Shown: positions 1-58,439 of the stretch, one piece after another
Position numbering within the stretch: position 1 is the first letter of the stretch
Layout of the letters: each line of letters opens with the position of its first letter
NCBI RefSeq assembly: GCF_000970285.1
Contig: NZ_CP009516.1
Span: 248,001-312,000, forward strand
Direction: 5' to 3'
DNA length: 64,000 bases
Source: Methanosarcina horonobensis HB-1 = JCM 15518
Lineage (GTDB): Archaea > Halobacteriota > Methanosarcinia > Methanosarcinales > Methanosarcinaceae
Notes under the pieces: model-generated
Database searches by the model: none
Seen by the model: the letters and a program-made list of their open reading frames with translations, nothing else
Told to the model about the DNA's origin: nothing
Position numbers and translations under genes: made by a program

Positions 1-1004
1 TGGTTTTCTTCACCTATGCTTATCGTACCGTTGCCTTCTCCTATAAGGGTCTGGATTTCAGTTGTTAGCTCATCTTTGTTGAACTTGGATTCGTAGTTTG
101 TTGAGTTGATATCGAACTCATTTATGATATCTATCCCGTTCACAAATATATCTGTCCCGGCTCTCGTTCCATTGGAACTGACATTTACTTCTGCACGATA
201 GGCGTCCTCACTTATTAGCAGGGCTCCGTATGTGTAGCTTCCCTGGGCCGGAGCTTTTTTCAGATCCAGACTGACATCAAGGTTCTCGTGCTCTTTAAGG
301 TTATTTGGAGCTTTTATTTTAAGTTCGTACTCCACAACTTCAAAACAGGTTGCTGAAAGAACCTTCCTCGACTCGGGGTTTTCATCGCCTTCAAGCATTA
401 TGAGTATTCCATAGCTTCCAGCCTGAAGAGGGTCAAGAGTCAGGGTGGAAGGGAGATCCCCGTTTTCGTCCAGGGTCACAGCAGTTACCAGGGTCGTAGA
501 ATTTGTACTGTTATCAAAGACTTCCTTCAGGTTCACGGCGTTTCCGTCCCTAATGTCCGTGAAAGCCTCACCAAGGGAACTCAGGTTAAGCCCCTGAACA
601 AGATAAACATTTACATTCTGCTGTCCGAAAGCTGCAGGGCCTTTGTAGTCTACCTTCACTTTGTCTTTTTCAGCGTAAAAAGGATGAGTAGTGTACGGGT
701 ATGCAAGAACTATTTCAGTACCATCCCCGTACTCCCCTGGTTTCAGTTCAAGGGCAGCTCCTTCACTATTCAGGCTGTCTGTCCCTTTGTATGTGAAATT
801 AAGAGGCTGTGGGAGCCGGATCTCATCTCCTCCACTGAGAAGGATCCAGCCTCCTTCCGTAAGGCTTTCATTATGGTCTGCAAAATAAATACTATCTCCG
901 TTTTTCTCGATAACTGCAACCCATGGATCATCTTCAGAAATTGCTGCTGATGCCGAACTGAGTAGAAAAATCAGAGTTAAAACCATCAGGGTTAACTTGA
1001 ACAT
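1..1004 (-). CDS. Exported surface protein, C-terminus beyond window edge
   Basis: The reading frame stays open from an ATG at 1004 to the left edge, so only the first 334 residues are seen. The N-terminus is a clear Sec signal peptide: a short basic start (MFK), a hydrophobic run and an SSASA-type cleavage site near residue 20, followed by AISEDDPWVAVI. The mature part is acidic, Asn/Thr-rich with several N-glycosylation sequons, and looks all-beta. It recalls the Methanosarcina-restricted secreted proteins annotated with a TIGR04279-type domain, but I cannot confirm that assignment. The next gene on the same strand (ends at 1254) also encodes an exported protein. The role is unknown; a cell-envelope or extracellular location is the only safe statement. 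Confidence 0.75.
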   Translation of the reverse strand, partial: MFKLTLMVLTLIFLLSSASAAISEDDPWVAVIEKNGDSIYFADHNESLTEGGWILLSGGDEIRLPQPLNFTYKGTDSLNSEGAALELKPGEYGDGTEIVLAYPYTTHPFYAEKDKVKVDYKGPAAFGQQNVNVYLVQGLNLSSLGEAFTDIRDGNAVNLKEVFDNSTNSTTLVTAVTLDENGDLPSTLTLDPLQAGSYGILIMLEGDENPESRKVLSATCFEVVEYELKIKAPNNLKEHENLDVSLDLKKAPAQGSYTYGALLISEDAYRAEVNVSSNGTRAGTDIFVNGIDIINEFDINSTNYESKFNKDELTTEIQTLIGEGNGTISIGEEN

Positions 1005-16870: not shown

Positions 16871-17030
16871 CAGTACAGCTTTCCTTAAAGTAAATTTAAT
16901 AAATTACTGGATAAATTGAATCTGACCTGGAGTATAAGTTGGAGCAAAAAATTCTTAACCAATATAGACCTCACTGTAACCCTGTTGGTTTCAAACAAAA
17001 AATCGGAGCCATTTTTCAGGTTCAGTCCTG

Positions 17031-17113
17031 AATCCTTATTCAGAGTAATCCCAAATCCTTATTCAGAGTAATTCTGAATCCTTATTCAGAGTAATCCCGA
17101 ATCCCTGTTCAGA
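17031..17113. repeat. 23-bp direct tandem repeats
   Basis: The unit AATCCTTATTCAGAGTAAT plus four bases begins at 17031, 17054 and 17077, with a diverged fourth copy at 17100. The exact 23-base period keeps one helical face. It lies 70-150 bases before the membrane-protein gene at 17183 and may be slippage DNA or a multi-site binding region. Confidence 0.7.
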
Positions 17114-17182
17114 TTCAATTCTGAACTCTTTATTTCAAATTCAATACATGAAATTATGATCGCTTAAGGTTATGGAGATAGT

Positions 17183-22634: not shown

Positions 22635-25391
22635 ATGCTAAAACGAGAATTGGGAGTCCTCTTCCTGGTAGGGTGCTTTATATTTTCAAGTGTTCCTATG
22701 GCTTCATGCCGGACTGCTGCACCTATGATTTATGTTGCAGGAGATGGGAGTGGGGACTTTAACTGTGATGGAAAAGACGATCATGTACAGATAAACCAGG
22801 CCCTTAAATTCGTGGCAGAAAATTCTGCATATACAACTGTCCACCTCAAAGGGCCTTTTACGTATGATATTGGCGATACACTTCTGATTGGAAGCAATAC
22901 TATCCTTGAAGGAGATTCGAATGCTGTAATCAGGCTGCATAATAATGCAGGTTGGGCTACTATGAAACCTCTTATCCAGCAGATGAGCAGTTCAGGGAAC
23001 ACCAATATTACGATAAGAGGTTTCGAAGTTGATGTGAATCACGATGGCAACAGTGAACTTGCCAAAGGTAAAGGCTACTACAATGTGATTTACTTCCTCT
23101 ACACCAGCAATGTAACCGTCCACGACATGTATATGCATGATGGACACGGGGACGGGCTGAGGATAAAGTACGGCAGTAATATCCGGTTTTATAACAATAC
23201 AATTTATATGCTCGGACACGACGGGCTTTTTGCAATCGAGTGCTCTAACGTAGAAGCCTGGAACAACACGATAACCTGCAGGACCAATAGCGCTTTAAGA
23301 GTATGGAATTCAAACAATGTAAAGTTCCATGATAACTTTATTGATTCCTTTTACCACTGGAGCGCAGGCGGGCCCGGAATTCAGGTTGAGAGATCCGCAG
23401 GTGATATGAATAATATTGAGATCTATGATAATGTGATTACGAACACCTATGGTCCAGGTATCTGGCTTATAGGAACTGCCGGAGCATACGATAAGAGCTT
23501 ATCAAGTGTGCATATCTACCACAACATCTTCTATGGTTCCGGTACTAATCCGAGCATAGAATGGGTTGGCGGGGTTCTTGGTAGCGGATTCCACAATGTC
23601 CTGATTGAAAATAACGTCTTTGACGGAGTCCACAATGCAGCAGTTGTAAACATGTATTCAACTGATGACAATGCAGGACCTTCAGGCACAGGGTTCACTA
23701 CCACTGTCCGTAATAACATAATTGTTAATACTGTCCCCAGAACCACAAAAGGGACCGGTACCGGATATGGTGTTTCAAACTGCCTTCCCAAATCACATAC
23801 TATGGTGCTGGAATATAATTGTGTCTACAATAATTCGGCTGGCAATTATAAAAACGTCGTCCATCCAACGGACATCAATGTTGATCCTCTCTTTGTAGAC
23901 TCGAAAAATCATGATTACCACCTGAAGTCCGTGGCTGGTCGCTGGACCGGGACAGCATGGGTAAAGGATAGCACTGGTTCTTCGTGTATTGATGCCGGAT
24001 CCGCTTCTTCTGATTACTCAAATGAGCCGGAGGACAATGGAAACAGAATCAATATCGGAAGGTATGGAAACACTATATACGCATCTCTCTCAGGGATTGC
24101 TCCTGATGATACATCTTCTGATGATACATCTTCTGATGATACATCTTCTGATGATTCGTCTTCTGATAGTACAACTCCTGAAGAGCCTGTGTTTGATGAA
24201 ACTATCGTTTCCGAAGTTGCCGTATATGACAACAGGCTGCGTGAAGCTTCTCCTTCCACAGTCTATCAGAGTTCTCCTTTCATTGACCTGGGTGGGATGA
24301 ACAGTGTCAGGTACAGGGATGTAATAGGATTCAACTTGAGTGAATATACGGATGCCTCTCAGATTGGAGCTGCTACCCTTTCGCTCTACTGGTATTATCC
24401 TGAAGGAGGTACCAGACCTCAGGATACTGTAATTGAGGTTTACAGACCTGCTTCTGCCTGGAACTCAAACTATGTAAGCTGGACCAGGAGAGACAATGGG
24501 GTTGCCTGGAAAAATGCTGGTGGAGACTGGTATGATAAAAATGGCGTCTTGCAGGGCAGTACTCCGTATGCCACAATTACAATTAAAGGTAGCACCCTTC
24601 CTGACAACAAGTACTATCAGCTCAATGTAACCGATCTCGTAAAAGAATATGTCAGTGGAAAGTACAAAAATACTGGATTCCTGATAAAAGTAAAAACTGA
24701 AAGTGACAATTACATTGCATTCTACAGCAATGACTGCGGAAACGAAAATCAGGAGCCAAAGCTTAACATAATAACTAAAGTGCCTGCAGTAACCGTACCT
24801 GTGGTCACTGTAAATGTGACCCTTAATGGTGAAAAGGATAACAGGCTGCGTGAAGCTTCTCCTGATGTAGTCTATCAGGACAGCTCTTTTATTGATATAG
24901 GAGGAATGAACGGTGTCAGGTACAGGGACGCAATCCGGTTTAATCTGAGCGAGTATAATGGCTCTGAAGTTACTAATGCGACCCTTTCTCTATACTGGTA
25001 TTATCCTGAAGGAAGCTCAAGGCCTCAGGATACCGTAATTGAGATTTACAGGCCTGCTTCTGCCTGGAACTCAAATTACATAAGCTGGAATAAAAGAGAT
25101 AAAGGTGTCTCATGGAAAAATCCCGGAGGAGACTGGTACGATAAAAATGGTGTTTCTCAGGGAAGCACTCCTTATGCTACACTTACCATTAAAGGCAGTG
25201 CCCTTCCTGACAACAAATACTATGAGCTGAATGTTACGGATCTCGTAAAAGAGTACGTCAGTGGCAAGTACGAAAACACGGGATTTCTGATAAAAGCCCG
25301 CAGTGAGAGTAACAACTATATTGCATTCTACAGCAATGATATCGGGAAGATAAATCAGGTGCCAAAACTTCAACTTGTATACAACGCCTGA
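22635..25391 (+). CDS. Exported beta-helix protein with two disaggregatase-type repeats
   Basis: A 918-residue secreted protein. Signal peptide residues 1-27 (MLKRELGVLFLVGCF...), then a D-rich calcium-like loop (GDGSGDFNCDGKDD) and a right-handed parallel beta-helix (about 40-480) with many N-x-I/V turns (NIRFYNNTIY, NVLIENNVFDGV). A DDTSS linker follows (from residue 491), then two C-terminal repeats of about 185 residues starting DNRLREASP at 532 and 735; these match the repeat family of Methanosarcina disaggregatase-related proteins. The beta-helix may cleave or bind an extracellular polysaccharide and the repeats may bind it. The open frame starts at GTG 22572, but ATG 22635 has GGTGAT at ideal spacing and starts the signal peptide. 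A terminator follows at 25451. Confidence 0.85.
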   Translation: MLKRELGVLFLVGCFIFSSVPMASCRTAAPMIYVAGDGSGDFNCDGKDDHVQINQALKFVAENSAYTTVHLKGPFTYDIGDTLLIGSNTILEGDSNAVIRLHNNAGWATMKPLIQQMSSSGNTNITIRGFEVDVNHDGNSELAKGKGYYNVIYFLYTSNVTVHDMYMHDGHGDGLRIKYGSNIRFYNNTIYMLGHDGLFAIECSNVEAWNNTITCRTNSALRVWNSNNVKFHDNFIDSFYHWSAGGPGIQVERSAGDMNNIEIYDNVITNTYGPGIWLIGTAGAYDKSLSSVHIYHNIFYGSGTNPSIEWVGGVLGSGFHNVLIENNVFDGVHNAAVVNMYSTDDNAGPSGTGFTTTVRNNIIVNTVPRTTKGTGTGYGVSNCLPKSHTMVLEYNCVYNNSAGNYKNVVHPTDINVDPLFVDSKNHDYHLKSVAGRWTGTAWVKDSTGSSCIDAGSASSDYSNEPEDNGNRINIGRYGNTIYASLSGIAPDDTSSDDTSSDDTSSDDSSSDSTTPEEPVFDETIVSEVAVYDNRLREASPSTVYQSSPFIDLGGMNSVRYRDVIGFNLSEYTDASQIGAATLSLYWYYPEGGTRPQDTVIEVYRPASAWNSNYVSWTRRDNGVAWKNAGGDWYDKNGVLQGSTPYATITIKGSTLPDNKYYQLNVTDLVKEYVSGKYKNTGFLIKVKTESDNYIAFYSNDCGNENQEPKLNIITKVPAVTVPVVTVNVTLNGEKDNRLREASPDVVYQDSSFIDIGGMNGVRYRDAIRFNLSEYNGSEVTNATLSLYWYYPEGSSRPQDTVIEIYRPASAWNSNYISWNKRDKGVSWKNPGGDWYDKNGVSQGSTPYATLTIKGSALPDNKYYELNVTDLVKEYVSGKYENTGFLIKARSESNNYIAFYSNDIGKINQVPKLQLVYNA
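24105..24164 (+). repeat. 15-bp coding repeats (DDTSS linker)
   Basis: GATGATACATCTTCT occurs at 24105, 24120 and 24135, with a changed copy at 24150. It encodes an acidic Ser/Thr linker between the beta-helix and the C-terminal repeats; the near-identical copies suggest slippage and length variation. Confidence 0.85.
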
Positions 25392-31617: not shown

Positions 31618-31908
31618 GTGCTTTCTATGTTGATCCTGGGTACAGAAAAGCTCACTCTGGGAAATAGTTTTCCCGGTTCAGGCGTCTGTTTTGTTTATAC
31701 GGACTTTGGAATTCCTGCATATTACAGGATAACAGTCCTGGGATTGATTGTCCTTCTGGGAATGAAAGAAATGCTTCTGGTTTCCAGAAAAGAAGATCGT
31801 TTTTCAATCGATTCTATTGAGATGGGGATATACTCACTACTAATATGTTTTGTTGCCAATTTCCTCTTTGCAGGGATAGAAATTATTTTCATAGGGTTGG
31901 CCCCTTAA
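31618..31908 (+). CDS. Small two-helix membrane protein (paralogue of 10256 product)
   Basis: A 96-residue protein with two hydrophobic helices (YYRITVLGLIVLLGMKEMLL and MGIYSLLICFVANFLFAGIEIIFIG) separated by a charged loop SRKEDRFSID. It starts at GTG (31618), eight bases after GGGGGAT. It shares its plan and several positions with the protein at 10256 (GIP/GVP before helix 1, S....MGI at the start of helix 2), which supports both as real genes. Function unknown. Neighbours are the UDP-glucose dehydrogenase and a DUF354 gene, so a role with the glycan machinery is possible but not shown. Confidence 0.65.
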   Translation: MLSMLILGTEKLTLGNSFPGSGVCFVYTDFGIPAYYRITVLGLIVLLGMKEMLLVSRKEDRFSIDSIEMGIYSLLICFVANFLFAGIEIIFIGLAP

Positions 31909-32040: not shown

Positions 32041-32159
32041 GTTTTAAACTTCTTCCCCATCCTTAGTTCAGAATTTTACCTCCCAAAACTATTTATTTAT
32101 GAACTATTTATTCTTTAATATAATAGTATTTGTTAGCGATCCTATCAGAATAAAAAATT

Positions 32160-32390
32160 TAGGTTTAAGGAGGCGCTATAATAGGGTGGGGCTATGGCCG
32201 GGGGGGCCAGAGTTGCTGCTACCCTGTTGTCCATAACAGGGAGATTTTAGGGACATTAAGTCTTAAAGGACGTTAAGTCTTAAAGGACGTTAAGTCTTAC
32301 AGCAAGGTTAGGAAAAGAGACTTAGGAAGAATCAGGGTCCTATCTACTGCTTCTCTACAAACGAAGTAGAAAGACTCCCTGATTTCTTGA
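32160..32390 (+). other. Stem-rich intergenic region, possible structured RNA
   Basis: Within 230 bases lie a GGCC/GGCC stem (near 32189-32205), a perfect hairpin CCCTGTT/AACAGGG (32222-32241), three 17-bp repeats (32251-32300) and a long stem AATCAGGG/CCCTGATT (32330-32384) with an inner CTA..CTTC/GAAGTAG stem. GC content is above the surroundings. It may be a noncoding RNA or the leader of the DUF354 operon; the strand is assumed from the downstream gene. Confidence 0.35.
32251..32300. repeat. Three 17-bp repeats each with an 11-bp palindrome
   Basis: GGAC(A/G)TTAAGTCTTAAA starts at 32251, 32268 and 32285. The core TTAAGTCTTAA is palindromic around T; the last copy ends TTAC. The layout resembles clustered regulator binding sites about 235-285 bases before the next gene. 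Confidence 0.65.
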
Positions 32391-32534
32391 AACATCTTGC
32401 CTTATTTGTTTCCGGATTTGGCATATGTTTTCGCTTCTTATCTTCTTTTCTACTGCTGCCTTCCTGTAAGAAAAACTGCTCTTTTCCCTGAATGCGTACA
32501 TTTATAAGTGGGGACCAGTTAGGGAGTGAAAATC

Positions 32535-33620
32535 TTGAGGATCATCGTTGATATAGGGCATCCTGCCCATGTTCATTTTTTCAAAAACACTATATGGAAC
32601 CTTGAAAAGAAAGGACACCAGGTTGTGGTTGTCTCAAGGGATAAAGATGTCGTAATAGAATTATTAAATGCTTATAAAATTCCGCATACAGTTCTAAGTA
32701 AGGTTAAACCGGGAAAAGTTCACCTGTTTGAAGAGTGGTTTGTAAGAGAATCCAAGCTTTATAAAATCGCCCGTGAGTTTAACCCTGACCTTATTATAGG
32801 CATTCTTTCTCCTCCTGTTGCTCACGTTGCATGGGCGTTGGGAAAGAAATCCATAATCTTTAATGACACTGAACATGCAGAAATAGCCCAGAAAATGACC
32901 TATCCTTTCTGCAATATTATCTGCACTCCCACATCCTTTAACAGAGACGCAGGTAAAAAGCAGATCAGGTATAGAGGTTACCATGAACTGGCATATCTTC
33001 ATCCAGCTTATTTCTCCCCGAATCCTGAGGTTTTACGGGAACTCGATGTGGAGATGGGCGAACCGTTCGTGATTCTGCGATTTGTTTCATGGAGCGCGCA
33101 CCATGATGTAGGGCAGCACGGAATTGGTAATAAGCTAATACTTATTCAGGAACTCGAAAAATACGGGAAGGTCTTCATTTCTTCAGAAGGAAAAATGGCA
33201 GAAGAATTTGACCGGTACAGAATCAAGGTTCCCCCTGAAAAGATCCATAGTCTTCTTTATTATGCTACCTTATGCGTAGGTGAGGGTGCAACCATGGCTG
33301 TCGAAAGCGCACTCCTTGGGACTCCGTCAATCTATGTCTCTTCTCTTGCGGGAACTATGGGAAACTTCTCGGAACTCGAAGAGAAGTATGGTTTGCTTTT
33401 CAATTACAGTGATTCAGAAGCTGCTCTGAAAAAGGCTGTAGAACTTCTCAAGGACCCTGAACTTAAGAAAACCTGGAATCTCAAGAGAGCCGAGCTTCTC
33501 AAGGATAAAATCGACGTAACCGAATTCATGATAAAACTCATAGAGGGGACTCCTGGAAAAAGGCAGGGGAAAAAGCAAGGAGTATCCTTATCTGCGGTTT
33601 CGGATGAGAGCTATGCATGA
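32535..33620 (+). CDS. DUF354 protein, GT-B-like
   Basis: A 361-residue protein of the DUF354 family, which has a GT-B fold related to UDP-GlcNAc 2-epimerase and MurG. The N-terminal signature is VDIGHPAHVHFFKNTI, and the back half shows YYATLCVGEGATMAVESALLGTPSIY, equivalent to the nucleotide-sugar site of GT-B enzymes. Members occur in archaeal and bacterial polysaccharide clusters, probably as glycosyltransferases. A GTG at 32526 is possible, but TTG 32535, eight bases after AGGGAGTG, gives the family start MRIIVDIGHPAH. It overlaps the deacetylase gene (ATG 33613) by eight bases and heads the five-gene run 32535-37930. Confidence 0.85.
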   Translation: MRIIVDIGHPAHVHFFKNTIWNLEKKGHQVVVVSRDKDVVIELLNAYKIPHTVLSKVKPGKVHLFEEWFVRESKLYKIAREFNPDLIIGILSPPVAHVAWALGKKSIIFNDTEHAEIAQKMTYPFCNIICTPTSFNRDAGKKQIRYRGYHELAYLHPAYFSPNPEVLRELDVEMGEPFVILRFVSWSAHHDVGQHGIGNKLILIQELEKYGKVFISSEGKMAEEFDRYRIKVPPEKIHSLLYYATLCVGEGATMAVESALLGTPSIYVSSLAGTMGNFSELEEKYGLLFNYSDSEAALKKAVELLKDPELKKTWNLKRAELLKDKIDVTEFMIKLIEGTPGKRQGKKQGVSLSAVSDESYA

Positions 33621-34659
33621 ATTATTGAAGCAAAAAGCAGGAATCTGGGACCTTTTCACCAGAAAAGAAGAATACCATTCTAATAAGCTTGACGAGCACG
33701 GCCGTTTCCTTTTTGCTGAAGAATACATGAGAAATGCCTCTAAACCTGAGGTTTCCAGATACCTGGTAGAAAACGGGATGGAGATTGAATTCCCGGAAAA
33801 CAAAACCTTTGCTGTGTGCTTGACTCATGACATGGATGATATTTATCCTCCTCTTTCTCACAGCCTGCTGTCCTCATCCTGTTGCCTGAAAAATCTGGAC
33901 TTTCGGGGTTTGGCAACTCAGTTTCTCTGGAAGTTCCGGGGATCTGAGTACTCCCCTTACCTTAATTTTTCCAAAATAATGGATCTTGAGGAAGATTTCG
34001 GGGCAAAATCTTCTTTTTATTTTATTGCCAGCAGAGAAGATCCCAATAGGTTCAGATACGATATAGAGGATTTGGAAAGCCGTCTGGGAGAGATTTCCGA
34101 CAGAGGGTGGGAAGCTGGTTTGCACGGGGGATATTATTCATACGACAGTTCTGAAGCTATAAAAAATGAAAAAGAAAGGCTGGAAAAAGTATTGGGTAAA
34201 AAAGTCCTGGGATTTCGCAACCATTATCTCAGGTTCAAAACCCCGGAGACCTGGGAATCGCTGGCAGAAGCAGGTTTCAGTTATGACTCCACTTTCGGAT
34301 TCAGCGAATCGGTAGGTTTCAGGAATGGTATGTGTCATCCTTTTAGACCGTATAATGTGAACAAAGACAGGGAGATAGACATCCTGGAAATTCCGCTTAC
34401 TTTAATGGATGTCGCTCTCTTTAAGACTTCCAGATCTTTTGAAGAAGCCTGGAGACGCACAAAGGATTTGATAGACACAACAGCAAGGCTCAATGGAGTC
34501 ATTACTCTGTTATGGCATAACTTCGTTTTCGGATGCAATTTCCGAGATGATTGGATCAAACTCTACGAAAAAGCACTGCACTACTGTTACGATAAAGGGG
34601 CATGGATGACAAGCGGGGAAGAGATTTACAGGTGGTGGGGAAATGAATTCCGATTTTAA
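33613..34659 (+). CDS. Polysaccharide deacetylase-like protein
   Basis: A 348-residue protein with a conserved N-terminal block (IWDLFTRKEEYHSNKLDEHGRF) and a NodB-like domain. The Asp motif is LTHDMDD (D73, D75); the third motif is GFRNHYLRF, then YDSTFGFSESVGFRNGMCHPF and LLWHNFVF. In the paralogue at 41769 the His motif reads HGGHEAY; here it is HGGYYSY, so the second metal-binding histidine position has become Tyr and activity may be altered. It should deacetylate a lipid-linked or exported sugar chain. ATG 33613 aligns with the paralogue start. It overlaps the genes on both sides, so it is tightly co-translated. Confidence 0.82.
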   Translation: MHELLKQKAGIWDLFTRKEEYHSNKLDEHGRFLFAEEYMRNASKPEVSRYLVENGMEIEFPENKTFAVCLTHDMDDIYPPLSHSLLSSSCCLKNLDFRGLATQFLWKFRGSEYSPYLNFSKIMDLEEDFGAKSSFYFIASREDPNRFRYDIEDLESRLGEISDRGWEAGLHGGYYSYDSSEAIKNEKERLEKVLGKKVLGFRNHYLRFKTPETWESLAEAGFSYDSTFGFSESVGFRNGMCHPFRPYNVNKDREIDILEIPLTLMDVALFKTSRSFEEAWRRTKDLIDTTARLNGVITLLWHNFVFGCNFRDDWIKLYEKALHYCYDKGAWMTSGEEIYRWWGNEFRF

Positions 34660-35569
34660 AAGGAAGTACCTGCTGATTACACCTGCAAGGAACGAAGAAA
34701 AAAACCTGCCAGAGGTTTCGGAGTCTGTAGCCGGGCAGAAAATAACACCTGCACTCTGGATCATAGTAGACGATGGAAGTACGGATGACACTCCCAAAAT
34801 TCTCGGAGTCCTGAAGGCAAAATACCCCTGGATTCAGAGTATAAGGCTTCCTCCAAGGCCAAGGGATATAACCTTCCACTATAGCTACGTCTGCAAGCAG
34901 GGATTTGATTATTCGCTGGAATACTGCAGGGAAAATGGAATTGAGTATGAGTACATAGGTCTTCTTGATGCCGATACTGTACTCGAAGAAAATTATTTTG
35001 GAAAATTGATGGATGAATTTGAGAAAAACTCTTCTCTTGGGATTGCAAGCGGAGGGGTTTACTATGATGTGGACGGCAAGCTTTCACGAGAAGTAACAGA
35101 TATAAATCTGCCTCGAGGCACTGGAAGGCTCTGGAGAAAAGCCTGTTTCCTCGAGACCGAAGGCTATCAGATAGAACCTTCTCCTGATTCTATTTCCAAT
35201 ACTAAAGCTCTCCTTAGGGGCTGGCAGCTAAGGCAGTATGCAGATGTGATCGAGACCCAGAAAAGAAAAACGAGTGCCGGAGAGGGGCTCTGGAAAGGGT
35301 ATGCCAAAAATGGCTGGATGGCCTATTATGTGGATAAAAGCCTGTCTATGGTTCTATTCAATATTCTTTATCGTTCCCTGAAATCTCCATATTACCCGGG
35401 TATCGCATACTTCTATGGATATTTGAGTTCGGCTATTAAAAGGGAGAAAAAAATTCAGGACCCGGAGATAAGGAGTTACTATAAAAATCAGAATCTGGGG
35501 TTTTTGTTTTCCAGAATTTCGGGAGCCTTCAGCCGCAACTCTATGGACCTCAAACAGGGAGAGCAATAA
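34643..35569 (+). CDS. GT2 glycosyltransferase
   Basis: A 308-residue family 2 enzyme: YLLITPARNEEKNLPEV, VDDGSTDDTPKIL and the metal site LLDADTVLEENYFGK. There is no clear membrane helix, so it probably acts from the cytoplasm on a lipid-linked acceptor. The ATG at 34643 lies 17 bases inside the deacetylase gene and follows GGTGGTGGGG, a very strong ribosome site. Part of the 32535-37930 run. Confidence 0.88.
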   Translation: MNSDFKRKYLLITPARNEEKNLPEVSESVAGQKITPALWIIVDDGSTDDTPKILGVLKAKYPWIQSIRLPPRPRDITFHYSYVCKQGFDYSLEYCRENGIEYEYIGLLDADTVLEENYFGKLMDEFEKNSSLGIASGGVYYDVDGKLSREVTDINLPRGTGRLWRKACFLETEGYQIEPSPDSISNTKALLRGWQLRQYADVIETQKRKTSAGEGLWKGYAKNGWMAYYVDKSLSMVLFNILYRSLKSPYYPGIAYFYGYLSSAIKREKKIQDPEIRSYYKNQNLGFLFSRISGAFSRNSMDLKQGEQ

Positions 35570-35613
35570 ACGAATTAAATATTTTGAGACAACTCTGATT
35601 TAAAAGTGATAGT

Positions 35614-36825
35614 ATGAAGTTGCTCTTTCTGGATATAGTGTGGCCCCTTTACCTGGCTGATGGTTCGCTTATTCACAGGCATGAACTTGTAAGCAACCTT
35701 GCAAAGCTGGAGAATGAAGTTCATATCTTCACCACTGATACCTCTACTCTTTCTCATCTGGATAACATCCGCAGTCACTACGTACGTCCTGGAAGCCTGC
35801 TTTCTCTCACAATCAATTATTTCAGGAGTTCTGCAGGTCTGGTCGGCTCTGGAAGTTTTGATGTGCTATATACCAGAAATCCGAATTTTGGCTTTCTTGC
35901 CGGGCTCTTTTGCAGGGGCCGATACAAAGCTCTTGTTTACGAATTAAATGGAATTCCAGAGGATGAAACTAGCCTTATTAAATTAAGACACGGTGAAGAT
36001 AATTTACAGGGAAGAGGGACAGGAGAGCTATTAAGATATTTTTCTTCTGCAAAATCCAGGTTAAAGATTTTTATTCTGAGAAACGCTCTCGGGTTTTCGG
36101 ATAAAATTATCGCAGTGACTCCTGGAATTAAAGCGAACCTTGAGAGTGCTTATCTAATTCCTGGAGAAAAAATAACCGTTGTACCTAACGGAGCAAATAC
36201 CTCGCTGTTCAAACCTCTTGCTCAGGACGCCTGTAGAAAAGAGCTTGGGCTTGACCCGGAAGCCCCTTATATTTGTTTTGTGGGAAACCTCGCTCCCTGG
36301 CAGGGAGTCGAGTATCTTGTAAAGGCAGCTCCTTCAATACTCTCCAGATATCCTGGGTGCCGTTTTCTTATTGTCGGGGACGGGGTTATGAAAAATGAGC
36401 TCTTAAACCTTTCAAGAGAGCTCGGGATCGAAGACAGGTTTATTTTTACAGGTGTGGTTCCTTATGACCGCGTACCGGCTTACATCAATGCAAGCGATGT
36501 CTGCGCTGCACCCTTTATTTTGGCAAGGAATGCAAAAATAGGGCTTTCCCCTCTGAAGTTATACGAGTATATGGCTTGCGGAAAGCCTGTTGTTGCAAGT
36601 GCTATCAGTGGGGTTGCTGATGCACTTGAGGCTTCGAAAGGAGGAATTTCCGTCCTTCCGGAAAATCCGGAAGCTCTTGCAGGGGCTATCTTAAAGCTGC
36701 TTGAAAATAAGGAATTGAGAGCGAGTATGGGCTCAAAAGGTTTAAGTTATGTTACTGAAAATTACAGCTGGTACAGTGTTGCGAGACAGGTAGACGGAGT
36801 CTGCAAATCAGGGCTCAAGGACTGA
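35614..36825 (+). CDS. GT4 glycosyltransferase
   Basis: A 403-residue GT-B family 4 enzyme, closely similar to the one at 20616. Key parts: DGSLIHRHELVSNLAKL, VVPNGANTSLFKPLA, ICFVGNLAPWQGVEYLVKAAPSIL, LIVGDGVMKNELL, GLSPLKLYEYMACGKPVVASAI and GGISVLPENPEALAGA. It should add a sugar to the growing repeat unit. AAGTGATAGT before the ATG is the ribosome site. It lies 44 bases after the GT2 gene. Confidence 0.9.
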   Translation: MKLLFLDIVWPLYLADGSLIHRHELVSNLAKLENEVHIFTTDTSTLSHLDNIRSHYVRPGSLLSLTINYFRSSAGLVGSGSFDVLYTRNPNFGFLAGLFCRGRYKALVYELNGIPEDETSLIKLRHGEDNLQGRGTGELLRYFSSAKSRLKIFILRNALGFSDKIIAVTPGIKANLESAYLIPGEKITVVPNGANTSLFKPLAQDACRKELGLDPEAPYICFVGNLAPWQGVEYLVKAAPSILSRYPGCRFLIVGDGVMKNELLNLSRELGIEDRFIFTGVVPYDRVPAYINASDVCAAPFILARNAKIGLSPLKLYEYMACGKPVVASAISGVADALEASKGGISVLPENPEALAGAILKLLENKELRASMGSKGLSYVTENYSWYSVARQVDGVCKSGLKD

Positions 36826-36850
36826 ACATTAAAAGCTGTCTTTCTATTAA

Positions 36851-36892
36851 TACTATAATTTATTGAATAACTACTATAATTTATTGAATATC
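36851..36892 (+). repeat. Two 21-bp direct repeats containing a TATA-like core
   Basis: TACTATAATTTATTGAATAAC at 36851 is followed directly by the same sequence (19 of 21 bases) at 36872. Each contains TATAATTTA. The pair lies 30-70 bases before the FemAB-like gene and may be a doubled promoter element or a slippage event. Confidence 0.6.
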
Positions 36893-36922
36893 TAAATTAT
36901 TATCTGTCAAACGGGGCTTAAA

Positions 36923-37930
36923 ATGGACGAAGTTGAAGTTAGAGAATTAATGCCGTCTGAATACAAAGAATGGGATTTGCTTGTGGAAAAAGCTCAACCC
37001 GGTACGCTCTTTCACACAAGTGACTGGCTGGAAATCTGCAGGGATGTCCTTTCCAGAGACTTTAAGATTTATGGATGTTTTAGAAACGGCGAGCTTGTGG
37101 GTGGATGTCCCATTTTCGTTAAAAACATTAAAGGTATGTTGAAAATAGCTTCCTCTACCTGTAATATGACCGATTATTGCGGTCCCCTTATAAAAGAAGG
37201 AGCCAGCTCTAAAGCCAGCAAACGTATGCAGGATACGCATGAGATTCTTGGGGCCCTCAGGGAATTTCTCTGCAAGCAGGGGTTCGATAGTATTCACCTC
37301 ACCCTCTCTCCTGGGCTTGAAGACGTAAGACCTTTTACCTGGAAAGGATGGGAGTCAAGCGTGCGATACACTCATCATCTGGACCTTAAAGAAAACGTAG
37401 ACAGCAACCTTTCGAGAAAAATCCGGAGGGAACTTAAGAGCGCAGAAGAAGCAGGGCTTAAAACGAGATCTTCAAACGATCCTGAGACTTATTACCACCT
37501 GCTTTCCCTTGTCTATGAGAAACAAAATCTGGAACCTCCTGTGCCAAAGGGATTCTTTGAAAGAGTATTTAAATTGATCCAGGAGAAAGATGCTGGCTAT
37601 ATGTTTGTCTCGGAGACTCCCGAAGGAGAAGTAGTTGCATCTCATCTTAACCTGTATGGTAAGAAATGTACTGTTACCTGGTCTTCAGCCCTGAACCCCG
37701 AATTCGGCAGAATGGGTCCCAATGCACTTCTATATTATAACGAGTTTCTCGACCTCAAGGCCAGAAATTTCGAATATATGAATGTAATGGCAGCAAACAT
37801 TCCAAGATTTGCGGACTTTATTATGGGTTTTTCCCCGAAGATTGTCCCTTATTATACTGTAACCCTGCGCAGCAAAAAGTATTCCCTCATGAGAATATTG
37901 TATCAGGCTACGCATGAAGAAACTGAATGA
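36923..37930 (+). CDS. FemAB/GNAT-like aminoacyl- or acyltransferase
   Basis: A 335-residue protein of the FemAB-like group (two GNAT folds). Seen are the start WDLLVEKAQPGTLFHTSDWLEI, the repeated central feature NLSRKIRRELKSAEEAGLKT, VASHLNLYGKKCTVTWSSAL and MGPNALLYYNEFLDLKARNFEYMNVM. Relatives attach amino acids from tRNA to peptidoglycan precursors or occur with polysaccharide and sortase systems. Methanosarcina lacks peptidoglycan, so here it more likely modifies a sugar chain with an amino acid or acyl group (inference). GGGG precedes the ATG. It is the last gene of the 32535-37930 run, though a promoter-like repeat precedes it. Confidence 0.8.
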   Translation: MDEVEVRELMPSEYKEWDLLVEKAQPGTLFHTSDWLEICRDVLSRDFKIYGCFRNGELVGGCPIFVKNIKGMLKIASSTCNMTDYCGPLIKEGASSKASKRMQDTHEILGALREFLCKQGFDSIHLTLSPGLEDVRPFTWKGWESSVRYTHHLDLKENVDSNLSRKIRRELKSAEEAGLKTRSSNDPETYYHLLSLVYEKQNLEPPVPKGFFERVFKLIQEKDAGYMFVSETPEGEVVASHLNLYGKKCTVTWSSALNPEFGRMGPNALLYYNEFLDLKARNFEYMNVMAANIPRFADFIMGFSPKIVPYYTVTLRSKKYSLMRILYQATHEETE

Positions 37931-58353: not shown

Positions 58354-58439
58354 CCCGAGTTTCGCTTCGGCACCCGAGTTTCGCTTCGGCACCCGAGTTT
58401 CGCTTCGGGAGCACGAGGTCCTTTTCGCTTCGCTCAAGA
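58354..58439 (+). terminator. Tandem hairpin-forming repeats, terminator-like
   Basis: CCCGAGTTTCGCTTCGGCA is repeated at 58354, 58373 and 58392 (last copy ending GGGA), period 19; each copy can pair CCGA with TCGG. A second stem GTCCT...AGGAC (about 58419-58443) follows. The block starts 14 bases after the stop of the membrane protein. Confidence 0.6.

Follow-up and report, generated by a model that had tools for sequence, protein, structure and literature searches.

Near the start of bacterial polysaccharide operons, elements such as EAR RNA and JUMPstart/ops help transcription to go through. Among archaea, few leader RNAs that act in cis are known once the widespread riboswitch classes are set aside. 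For the methanosarcinal CO dehydrogenase/acetyl-CoA synthase (cdh) operon, the 5' leader has reportedly been tested experimentally, in work by Anderson et al. (2009, J Bacteriol 191:7123) that PMC5112694 and PMC3600222 list among their references.

Here we describe a locus from a window of 64,000 nucleotides of the Methanosarcina horonobensis HB-1 = JCM 15518 genome. An earlier note had pointed to positions 32160-32390 of this window, upstream of an operon that begins with a DUF354 gene, as a stem-rich stretch with palindromic repeats that could be a new regulatory RNA or a cluster of operator sites. Comparison of related genomes makes it fairly probable that this stretch forms the structured part of a 5' leader of about 420 nt that acts in cis on a polysaccharide operon. 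The leader is present in nearly the whole genus, before an operon that may make extracellular polysaccharide.

Results

The locus has the following features, given with their positions in the window.

31618-31908, + strand: 96-aa ORF before the leader (56-89% identity in 16 of the 16 orthologous loci compared)
32063-32096, + strand: promoter-like block, a conserved pattern of the upstream motif TTAGTTCAG, a BRE-like element (CCCAAAA) and a TATA-like box (CTATTTAT)
32115-32534, + strand: 5' leader RNA predicted for the DUF354 operon (aligns in clade A, and as blocks in other species)
32175-32234, + strand: P1 hairpin, arms 32175-32189 and 32219-32234 (RNAalifold consensus, 11 species)
32251-32299, + strand: tandem 17-bp repeat, 2.9 copies (TRF score 91, 96% matches)
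32305-32323, + strand: P2, a small hairpin, arms 32305-32309 and 32318-32323 (clade-A consensus structure)
32325-32389, + strand: P3 hairpin (covariation, 25 species)
32535-33620, + strand: DUF354 gene, first of the operon (Pfam PF04007, 2.8e-26)
33604-37930, + strand: rest of the operon, with deacetylase-like, GT2, GT4 and FemAB/GNAT-like genes (Pfam, NCBIfam)

The operon is about 5.4 kb long, and its DUF354 gene starts with TTG at 32535 following GGGAGTGA, a start context that is conserved in 28 species. Comparison of 16 orthologous loci showed a conserved order of epimerase, galU, UDP-glucose dehydrogenase, 96-aa ORF, leader, DUF354, deacetylase, GT2, GT4, FemAB and flippase, within the reach of their contigs. 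The 96-aa ORF had no NCBIfam match. The predicted operon proteins suggest a role in the synthesis of an extracellular (cell-surface) polysaccharide. N-acetylgalactosamine and glucuronic acid are constituents of methanochondroitin (PMC9723798), and the adjacent UDP-glucose dehydrogenase would fit the latter; a link between the operon and methanochondroitin is speculation.

A BLAST search with the M. horonobensis element gave matches in 11 of 60 related genomes, and a search with the longer leader of a relative (L025) gave matches in 30 of the 31 Methanosarcina genomes. In 30 of these 31 species genomes the element precedes the orthologous DUF354 gene; the leader match adjoins the gene within one assembled stretch in 28 of the 30, the leader parts are separated by an insertion in G018, and different contigs hold the promoter match and the DUF354 gene in G024. 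The sole genome without a match (G026) lacks the operon, and its DUF354 genes are all more distant (56%). We distinguished clade A, comprising 11 species including M. horonobensis, in which the leader is alignable throughout, from clade B with 17 further species, in most of which the promoter-like block, the UCUGACAG..GGUUCGG stretch and P3 are alignable. The covariance search across Methanosarcina that the earlier note had called for was run with a P2-P3 model and placed the element at the DUF354 locus in 27 of the 31 genomes, 20 of which had supplied model sequences and match by construction. The same model found nothing in 81 genomes of 13 other Methanosarcinaceae genera, many of which encode DUF354 relatives, and no paralogues were found in the M. 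horonobensis genome. A marginal second match to the model (E = 0.013) was observed away from the operon in one genome (G005:C33:3220-3323). The element is thus genus-specific, and it is tied to one operon.

At about 32063 the conservation jumps from about 0.5 to 0.8, coinciding with the promoter-like block. This pattern was present in 25 of the 31 Methanosarcina genomes, a count that misses variants with other spacing, and at the DUF354 locus in 24 of these; reversed-pattern controls gave 0 matches. There is one such block per genome at this locus, and weaker matches elsewhere, with two to three mismatches, were seen only in G026 and for one of the two matches in G010. A regulon sharing the promoter motif was considered and rejected, as the motif is otherwise confined to the DUF354 locus. 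We infer that the block at 32063-32096 probably acts as a promoter, and the leader RNA would start about 25 nt past the TATA-like box. The conserved stretch from this block to the DUF354 start measures approximately 420 nt, and in clade A the conservation of most of the leader, outside the repeat, was 0.64-0.85 versus 0.51-0.63 in the adjacent upstream spacer. No conserved alternative promoter was found near DUF354. There was no conserved T run before or after P3, and hence no conserved U-tract terminator of the kind on which an attenuator with an intrinsic terminator would depend, which leaves room for factor-dependent termination. In 25 species P3 ends 131-147 nt before the start codon, with a variable sequence in between.

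The GC content is 0.50 at 32160-32279 and 0.25-0.30 just upstream, in keeping with the higher-GC DNA in an AT-rich gap described before. The several stems seen earlier in 32160-32390 were likewise borne out. On the + strand, 32150-32400 folded better than its dinucleotide shuffles (z -2.5, 1/200). The - strand of the same stretch was also better than its dinucleotide shuffles (z -2.7). None of 4227 Rfam families reached its gathering score within the window, and sub-threshold matches at the element were implausible, in agreement with the view that no known riboswitch or RNA class fits. The stems do lie within the originally marked limits, but the conserved block is larger, from about 32063 to at least 32460.

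The clade-A consensus structure comprises 40 pairs, and 94% of its cells are paired. Its variation is largely one-sided (G-U type), and its covariation as a whole was not clearly above shuffles (45/500 reached the score). In P1, 92% of cells are paired in clade A and the variation is mostly one-sided and of the G-U type, with little true covariation; its outermost pairs are broken in M. horonobensis, and in clade B its covariation was not above shuffles. P2 has 96.9% of cells paired and no double changes in clade A, and is partly disrupted in M. horonobensis. The outer helix of P3 pairs AAUCAGGG at 32330-32337 with CCCUGAUU at 32377-32384, and the inner helix pairs 32347-32353 with 32363-32369. 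Among 25 species, five of the eight pairs of the outer helix showed both-sided changes. The covariation score of P3, its paired cells, its doubly changed cells and its pair types were reached by 0 of 500 shuffles each, and 7 of the 500 reached its count of doubly changed pairs; slid versions of the pairing scored lower, with one measure tied. Covarying stems in relatives, whose absence the earlier note would have counted against it, are therefore present in the form of P3. Among the leader helices only P3 is supported by covariation, whereas P1 and P2 are not above shuffles.

With column-shuffled alignments of the clade-A + strand, the alifold energy had z -3.8 (0/60, SCI 1.01) and the mean folding energy z -5.8 (0/60), and the consensus fold of P2-P3 from 20 species had z -4.9 (0/100). 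The - strand was weaker in both column-shuffle tests (z -2.2 and -3.3), and for this reason the + strand is favoured for the folded element. P3 alone is indecisive on the strand, as a frequent C-A mismatch is a G-U pair on the - strand. A K-turn in P3 was looked for by eye and rejected; tandem G-A occurs in clade B with unsuitable spacing.

P3 is lost or shortened in G015, G021 and G023, and the downstream spacer is missing too in these three. For a riboswitch one would look for a highly conserved ligand-binding core; many species keep a UCUGACAG..AAGGUUCGGAA-like stretch, and three have lost P3. The leader of G018 carries an insertion between its promoter-like block and its P3 region: a HEARO RNA (RF02033, E 1.1e-33; L064:429-2007, minus strand), after which a 438-aa IscB-like protein is encoded. 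As P3 is missing in three species and the IscB-like insertion is found in one, part of the leader structure is dispensable.

The 17-bp repeat was confirmed with 2.9 copies, and the claim that all three contain TTAAGTCTTAA had to be corrected: this sequence is exact in copies 1 and 2, while copy 3 reads TTAAGTCTTAC. The other clade-A species each have one unit, and few of them keep the palindrome. The proposed search for the unit elsewhere came out negative: even with two mismatches allowed, the 17-mer matched no place in the genome besides the three copies at 32251-32299. The tandem repeat is a recent local duplication that is specific to the M. horonobensis genome and is not the conserved feature. 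Stems and repeat are two different things, of which the stems belong to the conserved element, and the part of the leader that holds the repeat tolerates insertions. Independent duplications were also observed in G018 (L064 about 255-345, minus strand), with about three copies of a unit of roughly 38 bp, and in the leaders of G015 and G021 (L052, L049), with about three copies of GGGGACGTTTGAGC-like units; these are at other places of the leader than the M. horonobensis repeat. Other TRF tandem repeats in the window are located at 17026-17134 (23-bp unit), 24103-24181 (15-bp unit) and 58354-58408 (19-bp unit).

Discussion

What stands of the earlier suggestion of a new regulatory RNA is the structured leader, for which P3 covariation, folding, synteny and the lack of an Rfam match speak; its regulatory role is what we infer. 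In relatives the element sits between the promoter-like block and the gene, and P3 is kept by compensatory changes, as would be the case for a leader RNA.

The other suggestion was a cluster of operator sites on the DNA, with a regulator bound at the three palindromic repeats. The palindromes (TTAAG-T-CTTAA/C) are in phase with a spacing of 17 bp, which would suit such a cluster, but the array lies some 150 bp past the TATA-like box, on its downstream side. As relatives have one unit, the palindrome is not generally conserved and the unit is found nowhere else in the genome, this explanation is not supported and we regard it as very improbable. We give hardly any credence to a translated leader peptide either, encoded by an upstream ORF after AAGGAGG. 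This Shine-Dalgarno-like motif is suitably spaced in several clade-A species, and 6 of the 11 have an ATG with frames such as MGWGYTRGAVAAILLSVAG; the other five, M. horonobensis included, have ATA or ATT, however, the frame is broken or stopped in several species, and indels are not multiples of three. The leader preserves no reading frame.

An independent small RNA, transcribed from the conserved promoter, ending before the operon and acting in trans, is unlikely. The element comes with a conserved promoter-like block of its own and with a compactly folded core, and 208 sRNAs, mostly intergenic, have been reported in M. mazei (PMC3600222). Against it, no conserved U-tract or terminator was found after P3, and DUF354 has no separate conserved promoter close to it. 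A leader in cis is favoured over a free small RNA because the element has a fixed position next to the operon, occurs as a single copy, is absent where the operon is absent and has no terminator. It is also rather doubtful that the stretch is just a long 5' UTR of which the folds set basal mRNA stability or translation without a regulated switch. Long 5' UTRs are reported to be general in M. mazei (PMC3600222), insertions, duplications and P3 loss are tolerated, and Shine-Dalgarno pairing is not consistent. Against this, most of the clade-A leader is more conserved than its upstream spacer, and compensatory change maintains P3.

For the cis-acting leader, we propose that leader and operon would be transcribed as one RNA, with the promoter-like block at 32063-32096 as promoter, and that the P1, P2 and P3 folds may change the amount of full-length or stable mRNA. 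The step most likely to be affected would be either the read-through of RNA polymerase in the leader or the stability of the mRNA there; we prefer these because the methanosarcinal cdh 5' leader is reported to regulate expression. Sequestration of the Shine-Dalgarno sequence was considered and rejected, since the predicted partners differ by species, even though CUCCCU of P3 can pair with AGGGAG. In its boldest form, the proposal would be an undescribed, Methanosarcina-restricted RNA switch or antitermination-like leader, which senses a sugar nucleotide or other signal via UCUGACAG..GGUUCGG and P3, and which controls a surface polysaccharide tied to the aggregated lifestyle. We consider this improbable, and the plasticity of the leader, with P3 loss, insertion and duplications, argues against a finely tuned switch.

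The known systems resemble this leader to different degrees. M. mazei sRNA154 and sRNA162 (PMC3177094, PMC3510493) are, like the element, intergenic non-coding RNAs of Methanosarcina; they were studied as small RNAs, whereas the element is fixed to one operon and has no conserved terminator. EAR RNA and JUMPstart/ops share with it the position near the start of polysaccharide operons, but they are bacterial, while the DUF354 leader has no Rfam match and precedes a short operon. The cdh leader comes from the same genus, is also a long 5' leader before an operon and reportedly acts post-initiation. It belongs to a different operon and was reportedly studied by experiment, whereas the DUF354 leader is described here from sequence. 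The proposed DUF354 leader would be a new leader RNA that is restricted to one genus and belongs to a general kind already known.
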